Assembly (NCBI GenBank): GCA_016744515.1
Contig: JADGEF010000007.1
Span: forward strand, 1-64,000
Direction: 5' to 3'
From: Marinifilaceae bacterium
Lineage (GTDB): Bacteria > Bacteroidota > Bacteroidia > Bacteroidales > Marinifilaceae
DNA length: 64,000 bases
The translations under genes and the position numbers were made by a program. The notes under the pieces are model-generated. The model was not told the DNA's origin and ran no database searches. It saw only the letters and a program-made list of their open reading frames with translations. Position 1 is the first letter of the stretch, and each line of letters starts with the position of its first letter. This document shows, piece by piece, positions 47,229-61,340 of this stretch.

Positions 47229-47903
47229 CTACCAACTATCCCAGAATCGCTCTAAAAAAGACTTCTCTGAAATTATGACCTTACCATGTAGAATGGTTTT
47301 AGCCACAATAGTTTGTGGGAATTTATCTTCAAAAACAATACGAATTGAAGAATTAATATTTGCATCTAAAACAGGATATATCTTAGATATGCTACCTACA
47401 ATTATGCCCTTTGAAGAATTAAACAACAACTTAGCATCTTGATTAACCTTAACAATTAATGATTGTGGTACTTTTGCAATAGCGTAATACGTTAAGTTAC
47501 CTTCGGGCATAATAACAGCTAATGCCTCCCCCTTAGTAATTGCATCTCCATTTTGAACAATACGAGAAAGCTTACCAGATAATGAAGCCTGTATCACATA
47601 CAAACTATCCTGGGCTAATTCATATCCTAGAACTTCTCCTTCTCTCACAACTACTGACTTCGAATCCCAGAGTATCTGCCCCGCTCGGTTTGCTTTTAAT
47701 AAGACGCTTTTAGGACTTGTTTCTACCTTCGCTGCAATACTTATTGTTTCTTTATAAGGAATAAATGCAGCCATTCCTACCAGTAAAATTAAAACTATAC
47801 CAATGAGAGCAATGCCGTAGCGTAACAAAACCGACGGCACTTGCCCAATAATACTACGAACCTTCTCACTACGTAGTTCTATATTCTTTTTTTGTTCTGT
47901 CAT
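47229..47903 (-). CDS. short HlyD-family secretion adaptor
   Basis: TM + biotinyl-lipoyl-like halves (ASLSGKLSRIVQNGDAITKGEALAVIMPEG); start MTEQKKN chosen because the upstream ORF extension lies in repeat DNA. Confidence 0.8.
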   Translation of the reverse strand: MTEQKKNIELRSEKVRSIIGQVPSVLLRYGIALIGIVLILLVGMAAFIPYKETISIAAKVETSPKSVLLKANRAGQILWDSKSVVVREGEVLGYELAQDSLYVIQASLSGKLSRIVQNGDAITKGEALAVIMPEGNLTYYAIAKVPQSLIVKVNQDAKLLFNSSKGIIVGSISKIYPVLDANINSSIRIVFEDKFPQTIVAKTILHGKVIISEKSFLERFWDSW

Positions 47904-47920
47904 ATCTTTCACTTTTATAG

Positions 47921-48002
47921 GAACACAAATTGTACGGATTAAACGAGTTTTCACGAATGTTTTCATCAGTGTTTATCCGTCATATTCGTTACATCTGTGT
48001 TC
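47921..48002. repeat. ~82-bp dispersed repeat, copy 1
   Basis: GAACAC...CGGATTAAACGAG...TTTATCCG...GTGTTC inverted ends. Confidence 0.9.
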
Positions 48003-48677: not shown

Positions 48678-50873
48678 TTAATTTCCCAGCTCCAACTGAT
48701 TCTTCACCAACTCATAATATTTACCTCGCTTTTGTGTGAGTTCTACATGATTACCGACCTCTACAATTTCGCCTTGATCTAAAACCACAATTTGATCAGC
48801 ATTTTTAACTGTACTTAAGCGATGTGCAACAACCACAACCGTTTTGTCTTTATAAAAAGCTGAAAGATTTTCTACAATCGCTTTTTCATTATTGGCATCA
48901 AGTGCATTAGTTGCTTCATCGAAAAACAAGAAAGATGGGTTTTTATATACGACCCGTGCGATTAAAATACGTTGGCGTTGTCCTTGACTCACACCTTGCC
49001 CATCTTGCCCAATAACTGTATTGTAACCCAAAGGTAAAGCTTCGATATAATCAGCAATATTAGCAACTTGAGCTGCATAACGAAGACGTTCTAAATCGGG
49101 TGTATCATCAGAAACGGCAATATTCCGAGCAATGGTTTCAGAAAATAAATAACCCTCTTGCATCACAGCACCACATTGCATACGCCACCACGACAGGTTA
49201 TAGGCTTCCAAATTATCCGATCCAATTTGAATAGTCCCCTCATTAGGAGAATAATAGCCTAAGAGTAATTTTATCAGGGTGGTTTTACCACTTCCACTGG
49301 CACCTACAATGGCAGTAACCTTGCCCTCGGGTATTGTTAAATTAAGATTATTCAATACATAATCAGACTGTGCCCCATTGTATTTAAAACAAAGGTCTTT
49401 AATATGGAATGCTTTATTATCAGGTAATTCGGCAAGCATGCGGTTCTTATTTTCTTCATTGTCTTGAGTATGAATTTCGTTCATCCTATCCAAACTAATA
49501 CTCACATCTTGCCACTGGTAAATAAAATTCATAATTTGTTCAACTGGGCTATTCAATTGCCCCATAATATACTGCACTGCCAACATCATCCCCAAAGTCA
49601 ACTGCCCATTTATCACAAAAGTGGCCGCCAATACCGTAATCAGTATATTCTTTAACTCATTAATCAGCACACTACCTGCTTCTTGATTCTGTTGCAAGGA
49701 GAGCGACTGCATATTCACAGCAAACAAATCTGCCTGTACATCTTCCCACTCCCAACGCTTGCGTTGTTCACAGCCTTGCAATTTAATTTCCTGCATACCA
49801 TTAATAAGCTGATAGACCACATTCCGATTAAGCCCTTGTTGCTCAAACTGCTTATAGTCCAACACGCGTCGTTTTTTTAAGAATATTAATATCCACACGC
49901 CATAAAAAACACTTCCCACTAAGAATACAAAGAAAATTTCCAAACTATAGATGAGTAAAACCACACCGAAAGTCAGAAAACTAAACACAGAAAAAAACAA
50001 TTCCAAGGTTTGGGCTGTAAGAAATCGCTCAATACGGCGATGATCCTCGATACGTTGCAAAAGATCACCCAATAATTTAGTATCAAAAAAGTGCATGGGC
50101 AACTTCATCAGTTTGATGAAAAAGTCGGAAATTAATGAGATATTAATGCGGGTACTGATGTGCAATAAAATACGATTGCGTATAAAAGCAATAGCCGTAC
50201 GGCTAAATATTAACATGGCTTGGGCAATAAGTATCAACCATATAAAATGGATATCCTTACCATTAATCCCGGTATCTACTATGGCTTGGGTGAGAAAAGG
50301 AAGAAACAATTGCAAGATACTTCCAATAAGTAAGCCTAAAATAAGCTGCCTGAAAAAACGTCGATATTTTGTCAGGTATTTCCACAAAAATAAAAACCGA
50401 TTTTGGTTCAGTAAAGTATCACCCTCTTGCTCATAAAAAAGATAGGTAGGTTCTAGCAACAAAGCAACACCTTTTTCTTCACCTTGCGTTTGGGTACTAA
50501 GCCAGCGATCGCAAAATTCCGCTTTGTCATATGTAAGCAATCCCTTGCCTGGATCGGCTACATAAATTTTATAGCCCTTGCGTATTTTCTTAATTTTATA
50601 AACGACTACAAAATGATTCTGATTCCAATGCACAATGCAGGGCAAAACGGCTTTATCAACCAATTTATCAAAAGTAATTCGTCCACCTACTGTTCGTAAA
50701 CCGATATGCTCGGCAGCCTTACTGATACCCAAAAGCGATACCCCATCTTTCCCTATAAATGCCGAAGCACGCAAACTCTCCAGAGTAAATTGCTTGCCAT
50801 AATGAGCAGCAATCATACACAGGCAAGCAGGACCACAGTCCATGGCATCGGGTTGTTTAACGAAATGTTTCAT
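48678..50873 (-). CDS. peptidase-containing ABC transporter (C39 peptidase + TM + ATPase)
   Basis: KQPDAMDCGPACLCMIAAHYGK C39; GASGSGKTTLIKLLLG; VSQGQRQRILIARVVYKNPSFLFFDEATNALD. Confidence 0.96.
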   Translation of the reverse strand: MKHFVKQPDAMDCGPACLCMIAAHYGKQFTLESLRASAFIGKDGVSLLGISKAAEHIGLRTVGGRITFDKLVDKAVLPCIVHWNQNHFVVVYKIKKIRKGYKIYVADPGKGLLTYDKAEFCDRWLSTQTQGEEKGVALLLEPTYLFYEQEGDTLLNQNRFLFLWKYLTKYRRFFRQLILGLLIGSILQLFLPFLTQAIVDTGINGKDIHFIWLILIAQAMLIFSRTAIAFIRNRILLHISTRINISLISDFFIKLMKLPMHFFDTKLLGDLLQRIEDHRRIERFLTAQTLELFFSVFSFLTFGVVLLIYSLEIFFVFLVGSVFYGVWILIFLKKRRVLDYKQFEQQGLNRNVVYQLINGMQEIKLQGCEQRKRWEWEDVQADLFAVNMQSLSLQQNQEAGSVLINELKNILITVLAATFVINGQLTLGMMLAVQYIMGQLNSPVEQIMNFIYQWQDVSISLDRMNEIHTQDNEENKNRMLAELPDNKAFHIKDLCFKYNGAQSDYVLNNLNLTIPEGKVTAIVGASGSGKTTLIKLLLGYYSPNEGTIQIGSDNLEAYNLSWWRMQCGAVMQEGYLFSETIARNIAVSDDTPDLERLRYAAQVANIADYIEALPLGYNTVIGQDGQGVSQGQRQRILIARVVYKNPSFLFFDEATNALDANNEKAIVENLSAFYKDKTVVVVAHRLSTVKNADQIVVLDQGEIVEVGNHVELTQKRGKYYELVKNQLELGN

Positions 50874-51668: not shown

Positions 51669-52160
51669 TTATTCTCCAACAGTTGTTTTCTCTTCGTCAG
51701 TCCTTCTAGTACGACTAAAGAACTGTTTTAACTCATTACGCTTGGCTTCGTAGCCTGGAGCAGATGTTCCTGTTTTATAACTGGTGTAAGCATAATCGTC
51801 TAAGGCAGCTTGGTAGTTATCGTAATCGTGCAGGGTTTTAGCATTATTAATACCTGTAAGCAGGTTTTGCAAGCGTGCAATAGTGCCTTCCAAAACATTA
51901 CGACTACTGAAGTCTTTGGCAAACTCATCCCAATCAACATCGGGACTACGCAAAGCCGTTTGTCCATTAGCATAATCGTTCACTTTATTTACAAACAGCT
52001 TGTTTTGTTCGCTTATACTACCATACTTGCGGCGTTCGTCACTACTAAGGTTACTTACCTTATCAGCTAGGGCGGTTTCTAAAGCTGCTAATGCCGTATT
52101 CACACTCTCTACTTGTTCTGCACTTAAATGCGTGCTAATTAGATTTTTTAATGTACTCAT
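51669..52160 (-). CDS. hypothetical protein of the peptide locus
   Basis: 163-aa ORF, predicted mostly helical, 26 nt after the TonB receptor stop. Confidence 0.55.
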   Translation of the reverse strand: MSTLKNLISTHLSAEQVESVNTALAALETALADKVSNLSSDERRKYGSISEQNKLFVNKVNDYANGQTALRSPDVDWDEFAKDFSSRNVLEGTIARLQNLLTGINNAKTLHDYDNYQAALDDYAYTSYKTGTSAPGYEAKRNELKQFFSRTRRTDEEKTTVGE

Positions 52161-52185: not shown

Positions 52186-54531
52186 TTACAATCTATTTAA
52201 TTCACTCCCACTTGCTAATTTTTTTCTAATTCCTCCACTGAATCTATTAAAATTGTATTTTATTGAAAATCTCACCCATGTGTTATCAAAGTCTGGAGTC
52301 GAACCGGCAACTATGTTCCCAAACTTATCCTCCCACGAATTGTCTGAGGAATTAAATATATCATTAGCCATAATACTAATGTTCAATTTCTTACTATAAA
52401 AAGAGGTGTTTAAGCCAACAGATAGTTTGTATTTGCTCCCCCAAGCTGTCATTAACTCTTCACTACTGCTAGAATATGAAAAGCTGGCAAAAATATTTGT
52501 TTGATGAGTAATAGAGTAATCATTTTTCGTTTGAAAATACCACGAGGATTTTTTCACCTTTCGTTTATCACCTAAATAAGGAATTTCAATAAAAGGTTTT
52601 GCACCTCCTAAACTAATGATACTGCTAAACTTTTTCAGGGAATAGTTATAATCAATATTTACAAAAACATATTCAGCCTTATTAACATTCACAGGCGTGT
52701 ACTTAATAATATCCTGATTACTTTCATCATTAATTGCACTTAGTATGCGTGCATTTTTCTCATATTTATATCCCATATTAACTGAAATCCCCTTGAACAA
52801 TCCTAATGTGAGATCGACATTGTGGCTTATACTTGGTTTTACTTCAGGATTGCCCACTTTATAGGAAAGCGAATTAAAATAAGTAATATCGGTACTCAAT
52901 TCATCAAAAGTAGGGCGATTGATTTTTTTAGAGTAGCTTAATGTTATATTCTGTTTATCTGAGATCTTTTGATTTATTAAAAATGTCGGAAACCAACTAA
53001 CGTAAGTTGAATCTAATACTATAATTCCATTCGAACTAATATATGTATCGGTGTATTCGTAACGCAAACCTCCTTGCAAACTTAATCTATTAAGCTCCTT
53101 TTTTAATGTAAAATAAGCTGCCGCTATATGATCCTTTATTTGATCTTTTGTTTTATAATTAATCTGATTTGCATCTTGATTCTTTGAACTTACATCACCC
53201 AGATTTTCGACTTTTGATAATTTAATTCCCGATTGAAATTTTATTGATTTGAAAATAGGGCTTTGGTAATCGACTTTACCACTGTAGATATCGTAATCAT
53301 TATGACTATCAATTAAAGTTTTCAATTTGGAATTATTGGTCATATTTTGTTCGTCTATGTCTTCGATTGAGTTATACTTAACTTTTGTATAATCGCCAAC
53401 CGCTGATAATGAACGTAAGCTATCAACAGTGAATTCATAATTCACATTGTAGGTTTGCAAATCATAATCACTATTTTTATCTTTAAAAATACTCCCTTTA
53501 TTTTTTAGCTCATTTGTTCTACTAATATATTGTTCGGCATTCGACTTTTGATTTCTACCATTTGAGATATACGAATATTGAAGTCCAATATTATTTCTCT
53601 TATTGATTTCCTGATTAATACTTGCAAAAAGATTATTCTTTTTTACTGTAGCTTTCCTTATCAAATCCCTCCGATTATCAATCATATAATTATCTTGATT
53701 ATTTATTTCATAAGAATCCTCATAATTTTTTGATTTGATATAGCCATATGAATAATTAACTGATACCCTTGTTTTATTAATTTCACTATTTAACTGTATT
53801 CCATTTATAATGCGAAATTTTCTTGCAAAATAATTTCGATTATAGATTTGTAATTTAAGCTGATCTTTAGTGATTTTCTTTGTTTTGATCCTTAAGACCG
53901 CCTTGCCCGATGCGCTATACTTAGCCGAAGGACTCCGATCGATCTCTATGCTTTCAATATCGTCAGATTGAAAGCTTTCTAATTCTGCCTTATTCTGAAC
54001 TTCCTTATTATTGATAAAAATAATAGGAGTTCCTTTACCAAATACAGTGATATTGTTATCATTATCCACAATCAATCCTGGGCTTCTCTGTAATGCATCA
54101 ATAAGGTCTCCAGCTTGGCTAAGTGAGGTTCCTTTCACATCAATTATTAGCCTTCCTTCGACCTGCTTAAATACTGGCCGTTTCGCTCTTATGACTACCT
54201 CATCCAATTCTAAAGTTTTCATTTGAATAGTTCCAACATCTATGGAACTATTCTCTGAAAAATTAATCAGTCGTTTTACTGTTTGATATCCAACACAGGA
54301 AATCTGCAATATGCACTTAACTTCTTTAATGTTATTAAACTCAACACAACCATCTATAAAAGCACCTCCGGTGATAATACTCAAGTCGGAAGTGTTTAAT
54401 ATTGCAGCTGTAAAATACTCAAGAGACTTATTATTACGATCAATTACCTTACATCTAACATGAGTAGATTGAGAATATAAATTATTGAAATGAAATAACA
54501 AAGTAATAATTATCCAACAGGTTCTTTTCAT
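52186..54531 (-). CDS. TonB-dependent receptor-like outer-membrane beta-barrel protein (OMP_b-brl_3 type)
   Basis: Signal peptide, regulatory-like domain, plug LDEVVIRAKRPVFKQVEGRLIIDVKGTSLSQAGDLIDALQRSPGLIVDNDNNITVFGKGTPIIFINNK. Confidence 0.88.
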   Translation of the reverse strand: MKRTCWIIITLLFHFNNLYSQSTHVRCKVIDRNNKSLEYFTAAILNTSDLSIITGGAFIDGCVEFNNIKEVKCILQISCVGYQTVKRLINFSENSSIDVGTIQMKTLELDEVVIRAKRPVFKQVEGRLIIDVKGTSLSQAGDLIDALQRSPGLIVDNDNNITVFGKGTPIIFINNKEVQNKAELESFQSDDIESIEIDRSPSAKYSASGKAVLRIKTKKITKDQLKLQIYNRNYFARKFRIINGIQLNSEINKTRVSVNYSYGYIKSKNYEDSYEINNQDNYMIDNRRDLIRKATVKKNNLFASINQEINKRNNIGLQYSYISNGRNQKSNAEQYISRTNELKNKGSIFKDKNSDYDLQTYNVNYEFTVDSLRSLSAVGDYTKVKYNSIEDIDEQNMTNNSKLKTLIDSHNDYDIYSGKVDYQSPIFKSIKFQSGIKLSKVENLGDVSSKNQDANQINYKTKDQIKDHIAAAYFTLKKELNRLSLQGGLRYEYTDTYISSNGIIVLDSTYVSWFPTFLINQKISDKQNITLSYSKKINRPTFDELSTDITYFNSLSYKVGNPEVKPSISHNVDLTLGLFKGISVNMGYKYEKNARILSAINDESNQDIIKYTPVNVNKAEYVFVNIDYNYSLKKFSSIISLGGAKPFIEIPYLGDKRKVKKSSWYFQTKNDYSITHQTNIFASFSYSSSSEELMTAWGSKYKLSVGLNTSFYSKKLNISIMANDIFNSSDNSWEDKFGNIVAGSTPDFDNTWVRFSIKYNFNRFSGGIRKKLASGSELNRL

Positions 54532-55832
54532 GCTTCAAGCTTATTTAACTCTTGTTCATAATGCATTTCTAATAGTTTAGGAAGATCCTCAAAATTTATT
54601 GGACAGACATCATAATCTGTACCATTTAACTTATGCTCGTATCTAAAAAGGCTACAACCTCCATCGCATACCGGAAAAAGAGTACATTCTTTGCATTTGG
54701 AATCGTTAAACATATCTGTTCCTACCATATATTCTGATAAAATGCTATAATTATATTCATCAGAAAAAATATTTCCTACAATGCGATCTTCTTTTCCTAA
54801 ATCTACCCAACATTTATATAATTCGCCACTTGGACCAACAACAAAACTGTTTATATAATCTGCTGTACATCCGATATCTTTAGGTTCTAGATAAAATTTA
54901 ACATCTTTAATTCCATATTTGAAATGAAGATTTTTAAAAAAAGTAATACGTTCTTTATGTTTTAAACATTTAACTTTGCATCCACCATGATCCGCAACAA
55001 TAGCCATATGAATACTAAGATTCTTATGTTCCCATCTTTTAGACAACATTGAATAAAGTTGGTGAAAGTCTTTTTCATTTTCTTTATGAAGATTAATACG
55101 TATTTTCACATGACATTCTGGGATAATTTCTGTCAAAATATCAATATTCTCAACAATTATATTGAATGTTGGAATTCCTGACTTATGTTTTCTGCTTTTA
55201 TTATGAGTATCTGGTAAACCATCAATAGTTATTTGAACTGAATCAAGGTTGTGTTCTTTTAGTTCATTACATTTTTCTTTATCTAGTAGAAATCCGTTTG
55301 TAACTAAATTATGAGAATCTAATTTAATTTTCTTTGACCTTTTGATTTTATTAAGAATATCAATCATAGTGTCAAATGCTAATAATGGTTCTCCTCCATG
55401 CCAGCATAAACTTAAACTCCCAAATCTGCTATTAGATTCAATATATTCAAGAAGTTTATTTTGCACTTCTTTACTCATTGTGTTAGTTGCAAGATCGGAC
55501 TCATAACAGTAAGGACAGGCAAAATTACAAGCCATCGTAGGAGCTATTACTATTCCAAAATTAGATTTAGAGAAGCATTTGTGGTATTTTAAAAATTTCC
55601 GTTGAATATAAAAATTATCATCTTCATTATTAGATACAAATACATGTGAATTTTGAAGAGCTTTGAGAATCTTCTTATCAATGGTTTTAATCAGATTAGG
55701 ATTATTTTTACACTCTTTTAAGTTATGAAATAGTCTTTCACTAATTTTTAAAAATGAATTTGTTCTGGAGTTATAGATAAAATATCCATATTTTGCCGAA
55801 TCCATCAAGTAATTGTATCTTGAAAATTGCAT
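54528..55832 (-). CDS. radical SAM/SPASM peptide maturase 1
   Basis: APTMACNFACPYCYESD; LSLCWHGGEPLLAF; SPASM CKECTLFPVCDGGC. Confidence 0.95.
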   Translation of the reverse strand: MQFSRYNYLMDSAKYGYFIYNSRTNSFLKISERLFHNLKECKNNPNLIKTIDKKILKALQNSHVFVSNNEDDNFYIQRKFLKYHKCFSKSNFGIVIAPTMACNFACPYCYESDLATNTMSKEVQNKLLEYIESNSRFGSLSLCWHGGEPLLAFDTMIDILNKIKRSKKIKLDSHNLVTNGFLLDKEKCNELKEHNLDSVQITIDGLPDTHNKSRKHKSGIPTFNIIVENIDILTEIIPECHVKIRINLHKENEKDFHQLYSMLSKRWEHKNLSIHMAIVADHGGCKVKCLKHKERITFFKNLHFKYGIKDVKFYLEPKDIGCTADYINSFVVGPSGELYKCWVDLGKEDRIVGNIFSDEYNYSILSEYMVGTDMFNDSKCKECTLFPVCDGGCSLFRYEHKLNGTDYDVCPINFEDLPKLLEMHYEQELNKLEA

Positions 55833-55900
55833 TTTTTAATTTTATTAAGTTGAGTAAAAAGGAGTTTATCTTATAATAAGATAAACTCCTTTTATTTAAT

Positions 55901-56089
55901 TTACCAAGCTGAAATAACTTTATTGTAAATAGAACGAGTCCCTCCACGTCTGCATAAATCGGCCGAAGAATCTGAACCATCTTTACAATAAAGAACATGA
56001 TCTTCCTTTCCTCCTCTAATATTTTTTAGTTCTTTTGTCAATATATCAATAGGAGCAACTACTATTTTAATGTCTGTTATTTTTTTCAT
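55901..56089 (-). CDS. GG-leader precursor peptide SAW-3
   Basis: MKKITDIKIVVAPIDILTKELKNIRGG|KEDHVLYCKDGSDSSADLCRRGGTRSIYNKVISAW. Confidence 0.9.
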   Translation of the reverse strand: MKKITDIKIVVAPIDILTKELKNIRGGKEDHVLYCKDGSDSSADLCRRGGTRSIYNKVISAW

Positions 56090-56133
56090 CGTGATTTTTT
56101 TTAAGATTAAAAATATTTTTCATAGAGCTCCTT

Positions 56134-56306
56134 TCCTTTTGCAATTGCAAAATTCACCTCTTTCTATGAGCATTGTACTTGCATACAGGGAGTTTCAGCT
56201 ACTATTGCCTCCTCCGGTAGAGGGTGGATATATTCTTATTTGTAATCCAGGGAGGCCAATTTCCTAAATTAGTTTTACCTAGAATGTGTATTGTTGTTTT
56301 ATTCAT
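56134..56306 (-). repeat. duplicated leader element, copy 1
   Basis: Homologous to 58152-58320; contains ORF MNKTTIHILGKTNLGNWPPWITNKNISTLYRRRQ and inverted repeat GCCTCC/GGAGGC. Confidence 0.85.
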
Positions 56307-56350
56307 GATCTATTGATTTTTTTCTAAATACTTATCATTTGATTATATGT

Positions 56351-57649
56351 TTATTTTTTCTTTAATTGTTGCTCATAATGTAACTCTAAAAGCATTGGAA
56401 GATCATCTACATCAATAGGGCAAACATTATACTCAGTCCCATTCAATTTATGTTCATATCTAAAAAGGTTACAACCACCATCACAAACAGGAAACAGAAC
56501 ACATTCTTTACATTTAGGATCATTAAATATGTCTGTTCCCATCATATATTCAGCTAATAACTCCTGATTGAAATCATTACTTGATATATGTCCTATAGTA
56601 CGGTCTTCTTTTCCTAAATCAACCCAACATTTATATAATTCTCCTTGTGGTCCAATAATAAATGTGTTATCAAAATCTGCTGTACAAGCAACATTCTTTG
56701 GTGTTAAATAAAAATTAACATTCTCAATTTTGTGATCTAAATGTAGATCCTTGTAAAAACTCACTCGTTCTCTAAGTTTTAAACATTTAACTTTACAACC
56801 GCCATGATCTGTTGTAAAGGATGGATTAATTGTTATATTTGGATTGTTCCATCTACTAGATAATTCCTCATATAGTTTTGGAAAGTCATTTTCATTTTTT
56901 TTATGAATATTCACACGAATATTTATATGAATATCATTTAATATTCGTTGTGCATGATCTATATTTTCAAGTATTTTTTTAAATGTTGGTAGTCCTGATT
57001 TGTGGATCCTACTTTTATTATGCGTTTCTTCTAAACCATCAATTGTAATTTGTACATAATCAAGTTTGTATTTTTTGAGTATCATACAAGTTTCTTCATC
57101 TAGAAGATATCCATTTGTCACCAAATTATGTTGTCCAATATTTATTTCTTTAGAATCAAAAACTTGAGTCAAGATATTCTGCATCGCTTCAAATGCCATA
57201 AGAGGTTCTCCTCCATGCCAAGTTAAATTTACTGAGTCAATACCTTTGAATGATTCAATAAAATCAACAATTTTATTTTGTATTGAAACTTCCATTTTTG
57301 TTGGTGGCAAATCTGATTCATAACAATAAGGACATGCAAAATTACATGCTATTGTTGGAGCAATGACAATCCCCAAATTAGATTTAGATAAACATTTCTT
57401 GTATTTAATGTATTTCTTTTGGTTAAAGAAATTCTCATCATCTGTTCTATTAACTAGTATTTTGGCTTGTTTTAACGATGACATTGTATCCTGATCTAAA
57501 TCACTGAATGAAGATGATGAATCTTTTAACAATTCTAGTGTTGTATAAAGGCCTTCATCTATTCTAAGAAAAGAATTTGTTCTTGAGTTATAAATAAAGT
57601 GACCATATTTACTCGAATTAAATTGATAATTATATTTAGAATATATCAT
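56351..57649 (-). CDS. radical SAM/SPASM peptide maturase 2
   Basis: APTIACNFACPYCYESD; NLTWHGGEPLMAF; CKECVLFPVCDGGC; strongly similar to maturase 1. Confidence 0.95.
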   Translation of the reverse strand: MIYSKYNYQFNSSKYGHFIYNSRTNSFLRIDEGLYTTLELLKDSSSSFSDLDQDTMSSLKQAKILVNRTDDENFFNQKKYIKYKKCLSKSNLGIVIAPTIACNFACPYCYESDLPPTKMEVSIQNKIVDFIESFKGIDSVNLTWHGGEPLMAFEAMQNILTQVFDSKEINIGQHNLVTNGYLLDEETCMILKKYKLDYVQITIDGLEETHNKSRIHKSGLPTFKKILENIDHAQRILNDIHINIRVNIHKKNENDFPKLYEELSSRWNNPNITINPSFTTDHGGCKVKCLKLRERVSFYKDLHLDHKIENVNFYLTPKNVACTADFDNTFIIGPQGELYKCWVDLGKEDRTIGHISSNDFNQELLAEYMMGTDIFNDPKCKECVLFPVCDGGCNLFRYEHKLNGTEYNVCPIDVDDLPMLLELHYEQQLKKK

Positions 57650-57756
57650 TTATTGGGATGTTTTAATTAAGAAGCTATCTCTAATTTTGAGATAGCTTCT
57701 TTTCTATTAAAAAAATCTTGCTTCCACATTTGAATCTAAAACAAGATCTGTTTATT

Positions 57757-57918
57757 TTACCATGCAGAAAAACTCGTCTTCTCGGTTACTATTTTCCCTG
57801 AATTGCACCCATCTGTACAATCACTATCCACAGGAGCACTATAACCACCTTTAATATGCTCTAATTCTTCATTTAAGATATCCTGTGGCTCTACAACAAT
57901 TTCTAATATTTTTTTCAT
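57757..57918 (-). CDS. GG-leader precursor peptide SAW-2 (not in ORF track)
   Basis: MKKILEIVVEPQDILNEELEHIKGG|YSAPVDSDCTDGCNSGKIVTEKTSFSAW. Confidence 0.92.
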   Translation of the reverse strand: MKKILEIVVEPQDILNEELEHIKGGYSAPVDSDCTDGCNSGKIVTEKTSFSAW

Positions 57919-57946
57919 TTTTCTTGATTTTTAATATAAATTAATA

Positions 57947-58108
57947 TTACCACGCAGACAGCTCAAGCTTTCCTGTAGTTATCTTCCCATTATTGCATCC
58001 ATCAGTGCAATCACTATCAATAGGAGCATTATAACCACCTTTAATATGCTCTAATTCTTCATTTAAGATATCCTGTGGCTCTACAACAATTTCTAATATT
58101 TTTTTCAT
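57947..58108 (-). CDS. GG-leader precursor peptide SAW-1 (not in ORF track)
   Basis: MKKILEIVVEPQDILNEELEHIKGG|YNAPIDSDCTDGCNNGKITTGKLELSAW. Confidence 0.92.
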   Translation of the reverse strand: MKKILEIVVEPQDILNEELEHIKGGYNAPIDSDCTDGCNNGKITTGKLELSAW

Positions 58109-58151
58109 AATATTCTTATTACTACTTATTTAATTAAAAAAGTTATCCATT

Positions 58152-58320
58152 CCTTTTACAATTGGCAATTGCAAAACTCCCCCCTATGCAGTAGCTTTGT
58201 CCTCACTTACAGGTAGTTTTAGCTACTATAGCCGCCTCCGGTAGAGAATGGATACTATTCATGTGTAATCCGGGGCGGCTATTTTCCTAAGTTATTCTTT
58301 CCTAAAAAGTGAATTGTCAT
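58152..58320 (-). repeat. duplicated leader element, copy 2
   Basis: Homologous to 56134-56306; ORF MTIHFLGKNNLGK and inverted repeat GCCGCC/GGCGGC. Confidence 0.85.
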
Positions 58321-58362
58321 ATCAATTAGATTAATTTTTCTACTTAGTCACATTCTTTTCTA

Positions 58363-58511
58363 TTACACATATACTCTCACCTCTTTCCCATCAATAACAA
58401 CGATAACAACGATAACGTAATCTCTTCTTTCTCCACCCTTTGTTAGGGTTAATTCCTTTTGGCTTAATATCTCAATCGCTTACTATTTTTTCCCATTTTC
58501 ATAACTTCCAT
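58363..58511 (-). pseudogene. frameshifted GG-leader peptide, second family
   Basis: Reads ...IEILSQKELTLTKGG|ERRDYVIVVIVVIDGKEVRVYV after a 1-nt correction. Confidence 0.75.
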
Positions 58512-58628
58512 CTTTAATAAAAGACAAGGCTACCAAGACAATTGTATAAAAATTCATAAACTACAACTCCTTAATACTCAAAACCAATCTTTTTATGTAG
58601 CCTCATCATTCAAATACCATAAGGATTA

Positions 58629-58760
58629 CTACACATATATCCTCACCTCTTCTCCATCAATAATAACGATAACATAATCTCTATTCTCTCCACCTTTCAC
58701 TAAGGTTAATTCGTTTCGGCTTAATTCCTCAATCGCTTTGCTGCTCTTTCTTGTTTTCAT
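58629..58760 (-). CDS. GG-leader peptide, second family (not in ORF track)
   Basis: MKTRKSSKAIEELSRNELTLVKGG|ENRDYVIVIIDGEEVRIYV. Confidence 0.82.
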   Translation of the reverse strand: MKTRKSSKAIEELSRNELTLVKGGENRDYVIVIIDGEEVRIYV

Positions 58761-59232: not shown

Positions 59233-60615
59233 ATGAAAAGCAACTTATTCAAACGAATTGGAATAGCGGCAATACTAATACTAAGCATACTTGTTGGTTC
59301 GCAAGGACTGTGGTTGTGGCAACAGTTGGAGCAAGAGAAACAAACTTTTGCATTGAAGATAGAAAACGCCTTACAAGGCATGATAAATTTTCATGCTTTA
59401 CAAGGCTATAGTTCTACTGATTCTACAAAACCAAACGTGGCTACTATTTCAATGGAAGAACCAACAAATGAAGAAAAAAACAAAGATACTACAGATGCAT
59501 TGGGGAAATTTGATATCAGCACAAAAAAATACATTCCTAATTTTGCTTTAGGAAAACTTATAGAAGCCTCATTTACAGACAAAAGTTTGTCGAATGGTGA
59601 ATTCAAAATAAAAACTGTTGACTCATTATTTATTAGCAACTTTCCCGATTATGAAAAAATAACAAGCTATCGCCTACAATTTTTAAAAAACGAAAAGATC
59701 ACAGATAGCCTATCTCATGGAGAGATGAGTAATAAATCGTTAACAGGCTCTCCTTCAACTATACACTTACAACTACCTCTGGGTACAAAAGGAAGCTATG
59801 TTTTGGCTGCTGATTTTCAGTTGGAAACTTTGCCTTTTTTACGACAAATGGTATTTTCAATAGGTATATCGGCACTCGCTATTATTTTAGTTGCTTTTTT
59901 TATGCTATGGCTCTTGTGGGCATTGCAACGACAAATATCACAGTTACAATGGCGAGAACGAGCCGTAAGTGGTATTGTGCACGATTTAAAATCGCCCCTA
60001 TCCTATGTCTATACCTTTTTAGATTATCTGGCAAGTAAGGAACAGCAGCCTGCAATGCAGAGACAACTTGCAAGTGCAAGTACCAATATCTCCAAATTGA
60101 CCCATAAAATGGATGTTCTACTAACATTATTCCGTTCAAAGAAGAAAAAAATTGTCATCGAGCCTGCTCCCTACAATTTGGCGCAAAAGTGCAGAGAGTT
60201 ACTATCGGAACTGGAAGTCATTTATCAAGAAAAGAAAGTTGTATTCAAGCTATCTATTCCCGATGACTTAAAAATCAATGTAGATCCTCTTTATTTCGAT
60301 GCTGCCTTGCGTAATTTGTTAGATAATGCATTGAAATATTCTGACACACCTGCAAAATTGACCATTACATCAATAGCAAAACAAAAAGGGTTATACATTT
60401 GTATTGCAGATTCAGGTAAAGGCATTCCTAAAAATGAACAAAAGAAAATCTTTCAAGAATTCTACCGTACTGACAACAACAGCAAAGGACATGGTATTGG
60501 ATTGGCTTTTACCCAACAGATAATAAAAGCCCATAAAGGACGTATTAGTTTAGAAAGTGAAATTGGAAAAGGAAGTACATTTTGTATTATTTTGCCTACC
60601 TCAACAATAGTGTAA
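59233..60615 (+). CDS. sensor histidine kinase
   Basis: Two TM segments; VSGIVHDLKSPLSYV H-box; NLLDNALKYS; SGKGIPKNEQKKIFQEFYR; GIGLAF. Confidence 0.95.
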   Translation: MKSNLFKRIGIAAILILSILVGSQGLWLWQQLEQEKQTFALKIENALQGMINFHALQGYSSTDSTKPNVATISMEEPTNEEKNKDTTDALGKFDISTKKYIPNFALGKLIEASFTDKSLSNGEFKIKTVDSLFISNFPDYEKITSYRLQFLKNEKITDSLSHGEMSNKSLTGSPSTIHLQLPLGTKGSYVLAADFQLETLPFLRQMVFSIGISALAIILVAFFMLWLLWALQRQISQLQWRERAVSGIVHDLKSPLSYVYTFLDYLASKEQQPAMQRQLASASTNISKLTHKMDVLLTLFRSKKKKIVIEPAPYNLAQKCRELLSELEVIYQEKKVVFKLSIPDDLKINVDPLYFDAALRNLLDNALKYSDTPAKLTITSIAKQKGLYICIADSGKGIPKNEQKKIFQEFYRTDNNSKGHGIGLAFTQQIIKAHKGRISLESEIGKGSTFCIILPTSTIV

Positions 60616-60629
60616 TTGCAAATTAGAAA

Positions 60630-61340
<711 letters not shown>

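Follow-up and report, generated by a model that had tools for sequence, protein, structure and literature searches.

A probable locus for exported radical SAM RiPPs with terminal-tryptophan precursors and a pseudoknotted leader RNA in Marinifilaceae

Three short precursor genes in a 64,000-nucleotide stretch of DNA from a Marinifilaceae bacterium (the window) probably belong to a locus for exported radical SAM (rSAM) RiPPs, in which a lineage-specific terminal Trp contributes to the function of the mature peptide and a pseudoknotted leader RNA precedes the precursors. The observations behind this picture are the genes and their domains, orthology, the distribution of the Trp among relatives, and the covariation and position of the RNA.

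Precursor genes and cassette architecture

Table 1. Features of the SAW locus and its surroundings, in window coordinates (R2, the wider covariance model described in the text).
Feature	Position	Strand	Description
SAW-1 precursor	57947-58108	minus	53 aa; GG leader, C-T-D-G-C-N-N-G core, SAW end
SAW-2 precursor	57757-57918	minus	53 aa; tandem duplicate of SAW-1 with diverged core
SAW-3 precursor	55901-56089	minus	62 aa; diverged paralogue
RNA element copy B	58126-58286	minus	directly upstream of SAW-1; R2 133 bits, E 2.0e-34
RNA element copy A	56109-56263	minus	directly upstream of SAW-3; R2 108.6 bits, E 2.1e-27
Radical SAM/SPASM maturase A	56351-57649	minus	432 aa; Pfam Radical_SAM; predicted N-terminal RRE
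Radical SAM/SPASM maturase B	54528-55832	minus	434 aa; 58% identical to maturase A
Outer membrane beta-barrel (OMP_b-brl_3)	52186-54531	minus	781 aa; start overlaps maturase B stop
C39 peptidase-containing ABC exporter (PCAT)	48678-50873	minus	731 aa; Peptidase_C39, ABC_membrane, ABC_tran
HlyD-like membrane fusion protein	47229-47966	minus	245 aa; assigned by position and by eye from sequence
Second, non-SAW GG-leader peptide	58629-58760	minus	core ENRDYVIVIIDGEEVRIYV
Histidine kinase	59233-60615	plus	divergent from precursor genes
Response regulator	60630-61340	plus	divergent, beside histidine kinase

The three minus-strand ORFs are present as the first-pass annotation had quoted them, each encoding exactly two Cys residues and a SAW terminus, and two of the three do fall below the 60-aa cut-off. 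The accompanying view that the cores are mostly different holds for SAW-3 against the other two and fails for SAW-1 and SAW-2, which share 85% protein identity. Codons 1-26 of this pair are the same throughout (0/78 nt differ); all of the codon changes, 8 non-synonymous and 6 synonymous, fall in codons 27-53. Those in the DCTDGC and SAW parts of the core are all synonymous, and codons 44-50 are largely replaced. Across all frames of the window, 5 of 371 ORF ends terminate in Trp, and SAW ends are confined to these three.

SAW-1 and SAW-2 stand ahead of maturase A and SAW-3 ahead of maturase B, and both precursor groups sit behind a copy of the RNA element. The maturases are followed by genes for the outer membrane beta-barrel protein (OMP), a 163-aa protein without family, the C39 ABC exporter and the HlyD-like protein; an OMP gene after the maturase is also found in orthologous loci. 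The HlyD-like protein has no NCBIfam match above chance, and its orthologues adjoin PCAT at other loci. The 163-aa protein (51669-52160, minus strand) has no match in Pfam or the PDB; several family genomes encode it at the corresponding locus with 77-89% identity, sometimes directly after the second GG-leader (DY) peptide. Between the kinase/DY-peptide genes and the exporter genes (52186-58760), different species carry different rSAM/precursor cassettes, and comparison of six loci (L027, L031, L032, L033, L060, L061) makes it look as if cassettes had been swapped at one locus.

A maturase with the CX3CX2C motif and the Cys residues of SPASM auxiliary clusters, an adjoining leader-bearing precursor gene and the presence of export genes mark the locus as a predicted radical-SAM/SPASM RiPP system. 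The CX3CX2C cysteines (C102, C106, C109) and the SPASM cysteines (C322, C341, C380, C383, C389, C393, C410) are invariant in 19 sequences. The predicted model of maturase A (pLDDT 88) has a b3a3 order at the N-terminus, as in RREs. The six closest maturases share an additional conserved C-x3-C-like pair, C285 and C289 of maturase A, which lies ahead of the SPASM region and outside the canonical cluster cysteines.

These parts suggest a route from precursor to product. The leader of each precursor would dock on the RRE at the N-terminus of the partner SPASM maturase, which most likely forms one or more Cys-centred thioether links in the vicinity of C-x(2,3)-G. The exporter, with its C39 peptidase domain, would then cut after GG and export the core, with HlyD and OMP completing passage through the envelope or handling the product outside.

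Distribution and proposed role of the terminal tryptophan

The terminal Trp is kept in 7/7 orthologous peptides from three lineages, as SAW, SVW or VIW. Labilibaculum filiforme, of the same family (Marinifilaceae) as the window, has two precursors ending in SVW, and those of a further genus of the family, also two, end in VIW and SAW. Of the SAW terminus initially described as invariant, the Trp therefore stands in orthologous loci, and the Ser-Ala varies. The expected setting was recovered as well, in that the precursors adjoin SPASM radical SAM maturases and terminal-Trp peptides recur in orthologous loci. In L. filiforme, a decayed SAW-type precursor (L027:7378-7446) separates the RNA element from the intact precursors; its leader is kept, GG has become DG, and it has neither Cys nor Trp.

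Precursors that lack the Trp accompany the close outgroup maturases, whose identities to maturase B are 54%, 52% and 44%. One no-Trp maturase relative, in another family, accompanies three precursors with the ends KIK, QLK and IIR; further such relatives are found in one Prevotella assembly and in a further family. The terminal Trp is conserved only among close relatives and is a lineage-specific feature.

The first-pass annotation had read the Trp, together with the Cys residues, as a crosslinked residue or an element recognised by the maturase or receptor. Retention of Trp in all seven close orthologous peptides is in keeping with an obligate role of this kind, as are the SAW codons, which differ only silently between SAW-1 and SAW-2. 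In the maturase tree, however, no-Trp systems are nested among Trp systems, so that two changes of the trait are required and maturases within the Trp group act beside no-Trp precursors. The receptor version meets the same difficulty: the L. filiforme OMP is 64% identical to that of the window, and OMPs accompanying precursors that end in SISLS or EISLS are equally close (62-67%). Because the Trp tracks neither protein, its reading as an element that follows maturase or OMP was rejected on these two comparisons. A streptide-like Lys-Trp bond was likewise rejected, the seven peptides having no fixed spacing from Lys to Trp, nor any from an aromatic residue, and the Trp, as the last residue in all seven, lacks the two following residues with which an aromatic residue closes the ring of a triceptide (three-residue cyclophane). 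A crosslinked or obligate recognition role for the Trp is accordingly considered unlikely.

Features common to both kinds of precursor are an approximate leader motif, V-x-P-x-D-[IL]-[IL]-x3-E-[LM]-x2-[IV]-x-GG, and C-x(2,3)-G, the latter recognised by eye in the alignment. We infer from sequence that leader and Cys motif serve maturation and that the Trp matters for what the mature peptide does, where it would probably take part in activity or target contact.

A pseudoknotted RNA element upstream of the precursors

The intergenic stretches upstream of SAW-1 and SAW-3 are alike and also resemble same-position stretches in six other genomes, forming an element of ~155 nt. A covariance model built from eight copies (R1) gave 25 matches in 15/60 family genomes, the weakest of them doubtful. 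The wider model R2 recovered 28 strong copies in 16/60 family genomes, with up to four per genome; five of these copies lie outside its training set (G026 has two of them, and G027, G038 and G041 have one each). Outside the family no convincing copy came to light. In 393 sampled genomes of the order, R1 at E 0.01 matched the window's genome alone, and R2 gave only weak matches (≤25 bits) outside the family in a 63-genome sample; in the two of these that were inspected, the P1 and pseudoknot pattern was absent by eye. The element was also not found in the third Trp-bearing lineage (L026) or at the outgroup maturase loci, and the RNA is therefore not required for the terminal-Trp peptide type. 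In the window and at 12 other loci, no Rfam 15 model matched the element with E values allowed up to 5, so that it falls in no known Rfam family. Among the papers listed by full-text searches, which reach little of the subscription literature, none described such an RNA ahead of genes for RiPPs or double-glycine peptides in Bacteroidota.

The fold comprises helices P1, P2 and P3; in addition, the P1 loop (C/U-CUC) pairs with a downstream GAGA/GAGG to form a pseudoknot. Among 28 RNA sequences, 89.2% of pair cells are standard and two-sided changes occur in 18/27 pairs. The covariation score is 0.364 against 0.200 for shuffled alignments (0/500 shuffles), a contrast whose strength the shuffle controls overstate because the copies are kin; slid versions reach ≤0.132. 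The pseudoknot, which was outside the search model, scores 0.321 against 0.167. Two conserved GCUAC arms can each serve as the partner of a single 5' arm, GUAGC, and in the rare variants G004a and G044 both partners follow the change in the GUAGC arm, which suggests alternative RNA structures. P3 ends shortly 5' of the start codon, and the pseudoknot links P1 to sequence just before P3. The two window copies differ in condition. In copy A most P2 pairing is lost and folding is no better than that of shuffled sequence, so this copy may be decaying; for copy B, folding against shuffles reaches a z of -1.6 only.

Small exported peptides dominate the genes behind the element. The first ORF is a small GG-leader peptide of rSAM, lanthipeptide or other type in 20/28 copies, and a small Cys-containing peptide with a signal-peptide-like (Sec-type) start in 5/28. 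The other three precede a decayed precursor, a 464-aa secreted-looking protein and a GG ORF ~107 nt further on. Thus for 25/28 copies the very next ORF, lying on the strand of the element, encodes a small peptide of GG or Sec type; a small GG ORF follows random positions on the same loci in 0.8% of trials. The enzymes encoded downstream include radical-SAM-like proteins at L086 and L100 (read by eye), a GLPGLI-family protein and, after the leader of a class I lanthipeptide, a LanC-like protein. This diversity indicates that the RNA goes with exported small peptides as such and not with one modification chemistry.

At five loci (L095, L096, L098, L100, L101) a terminator-like CTGCCA...TGGCAG hairpin lies just upstream of the element, followed in four of them by TAATGCGCATTA; the hairpin/TAATGCGCATTA region is possibly where transcription of the RNA starts. 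An earlier candidate, in which ~180-nt repeats were read as decayed precursor genes (LPEEAIVAETPCMQVQCS), was rejected: frames in the element contain stops in most copies, yet the DNA and the helices, with their compensatory changes, are conserved.

A proposed regulatory role for the leader

The element has a covariation-supported fold and a fixed same-strand position upstream of genes, as is expected of a cis-regulatory structured RNA. It is proposed that the element is a cis-regulatory leader for exported-peptide genes, possibly a switch, and most likely a 5' leader that controls translation. Each precursor group would be expressed behind this ~155-nt pseudoknotted leader. Gating of translation would probably involve P3, close to the start codon, and the GUAGC arm in its alternative pairings with the two GCUAC arms.

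The element might instead act as DNA, either as a binding region for a regulator or as a dispersed repeat. Copies at the DY-peptide locus are 73-83% identical as DNA, copies are dispersed with as many as four in a genome, and inverted-repeat DNA can also show complementary changes. It would be harder for a DNA feature to account for a pseudoknot topology with compensatory changes, for the G-U pairs within helices (39 among 441 counted) or for the fixing of both strand and distance to the start of a small-peptide gene, and this reading is judged quite improbable. If the element is a leader RNA, as preferred here, it could still bind a protein or stabilise the mRNA and not sense a ligand as a riboswitch does. 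The genes behind it have the export of small peptides in common and not a metabolic pathway, which suits such a leader. The two alternative partners of the GUAGC arm and the closeness of P3 to the start codon point the other way; both are usual in switching leaders and neither is proof. A protein-binding or stability leader is a serious possibility, if short of an even chance. More tentatively, the element may define a riboswitch-like RNA class of Marinifilaceae, in which one signal would switch the translation of chemically unrelated exported peptides (rSAM RiPPs including SAW, LanC-linked lanthipeptides and Sec-exported Cys peptides) as a shared RNA regulon.

The DY peptide and the neighbouring kinase/regulator pair

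The second GG-leader peptide has a strongly conserved, RDYVIVIIDGEEVRIYV-like core, with orthologues in 13/60 family genomes, the window's included. It lies beside a divergent histidine kinase/response regulator pair in 12/12 family loci examined, and this pairing is also found at L063 and L064, where there is no rSAM cassette. The peptide is a candidate signal for the divergent histidine kinase. A decayed copy of its gene is present at 58366-58491 (minus strand).

Implications

The SAW peptides add a core with two Cys and a terminal Trp to the poorly charted RiPPs of Bacteroidota, and the sister systems with and without Trp form a natural contrast that makes the role of this residue testable. 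Since the leader RNA fronts exported-peptide genes of differing chemistry, a single signal read by the RNA may set the timing for much of what these bacteria export as peptides. The RNA can also serve as a search tag, as nearly all of its copies lead to a small-peptide gene, of a kind easily overlooked by ORF callers.

Comparison with known systems

The Downstream-peptide motif (RF01704) is a structured RNA named for its position upstream of short peptide ORFs. The motif is cyanobacterial and marine (PMC2864571), and its Rfam model does not match the RNA elements of the SAW locus. Bacteroidales RiPP clusters with PCAT, MFP, OMP and rSAM genes, some with HK/RR, are described in PMC10352776, with nine clusters selected. 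They share the part set and the GG leaders of the SAW locus; in the available part of that article, SAW-type cores and an RNA leader are not mentioned.

Among precursor families, TIGR04149 (GG_sam_targ_CFB), which covers GG-leader rSAM-modified RiPPs of Bacteroidota, has in common with the SAW precursors the GG leader, the neighbouring radical SAM enzyme and the phylum. SAW-1 (19.9 bits), SAW-2 (17.2) and an orthologue (15.9) all score below its curated 25-bit cut-off, in weak matches that span the leader end and core start, and SAW-3 has no match; the SAW precursors differ in having a leader motif of their own, V-x-P-x-D-[IL]. Maturases A and B likewise score below the cut-off of every named maturase family among the NCBIfam matches listed. 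The best-scoring full-length SPASM families are that of the Clo7bot maturase (TIGR04334; 193.8 and 211.2 bits against a curated cut-off of 600) and PapB (NF047865; 122-124 bits against 340). The nearest solved relative, both by profile (E 1.9e-41) and by fold, is the thioether-forming maturase CteB (PDB 5WGG/5WHY), at 17-19% identity and with a different Cys-rich peptide as substrate. By analogy with CteB, and given the conserved Cys residues, a thioether of the ranthipeptide or sactipeptide type is a candidate for the SAW cores. Set against these systems, the SAW peptides are a new subfamily of rSAM RiPPs, and the RNA is a new structured-leader family with an unusual set of downstream genes.
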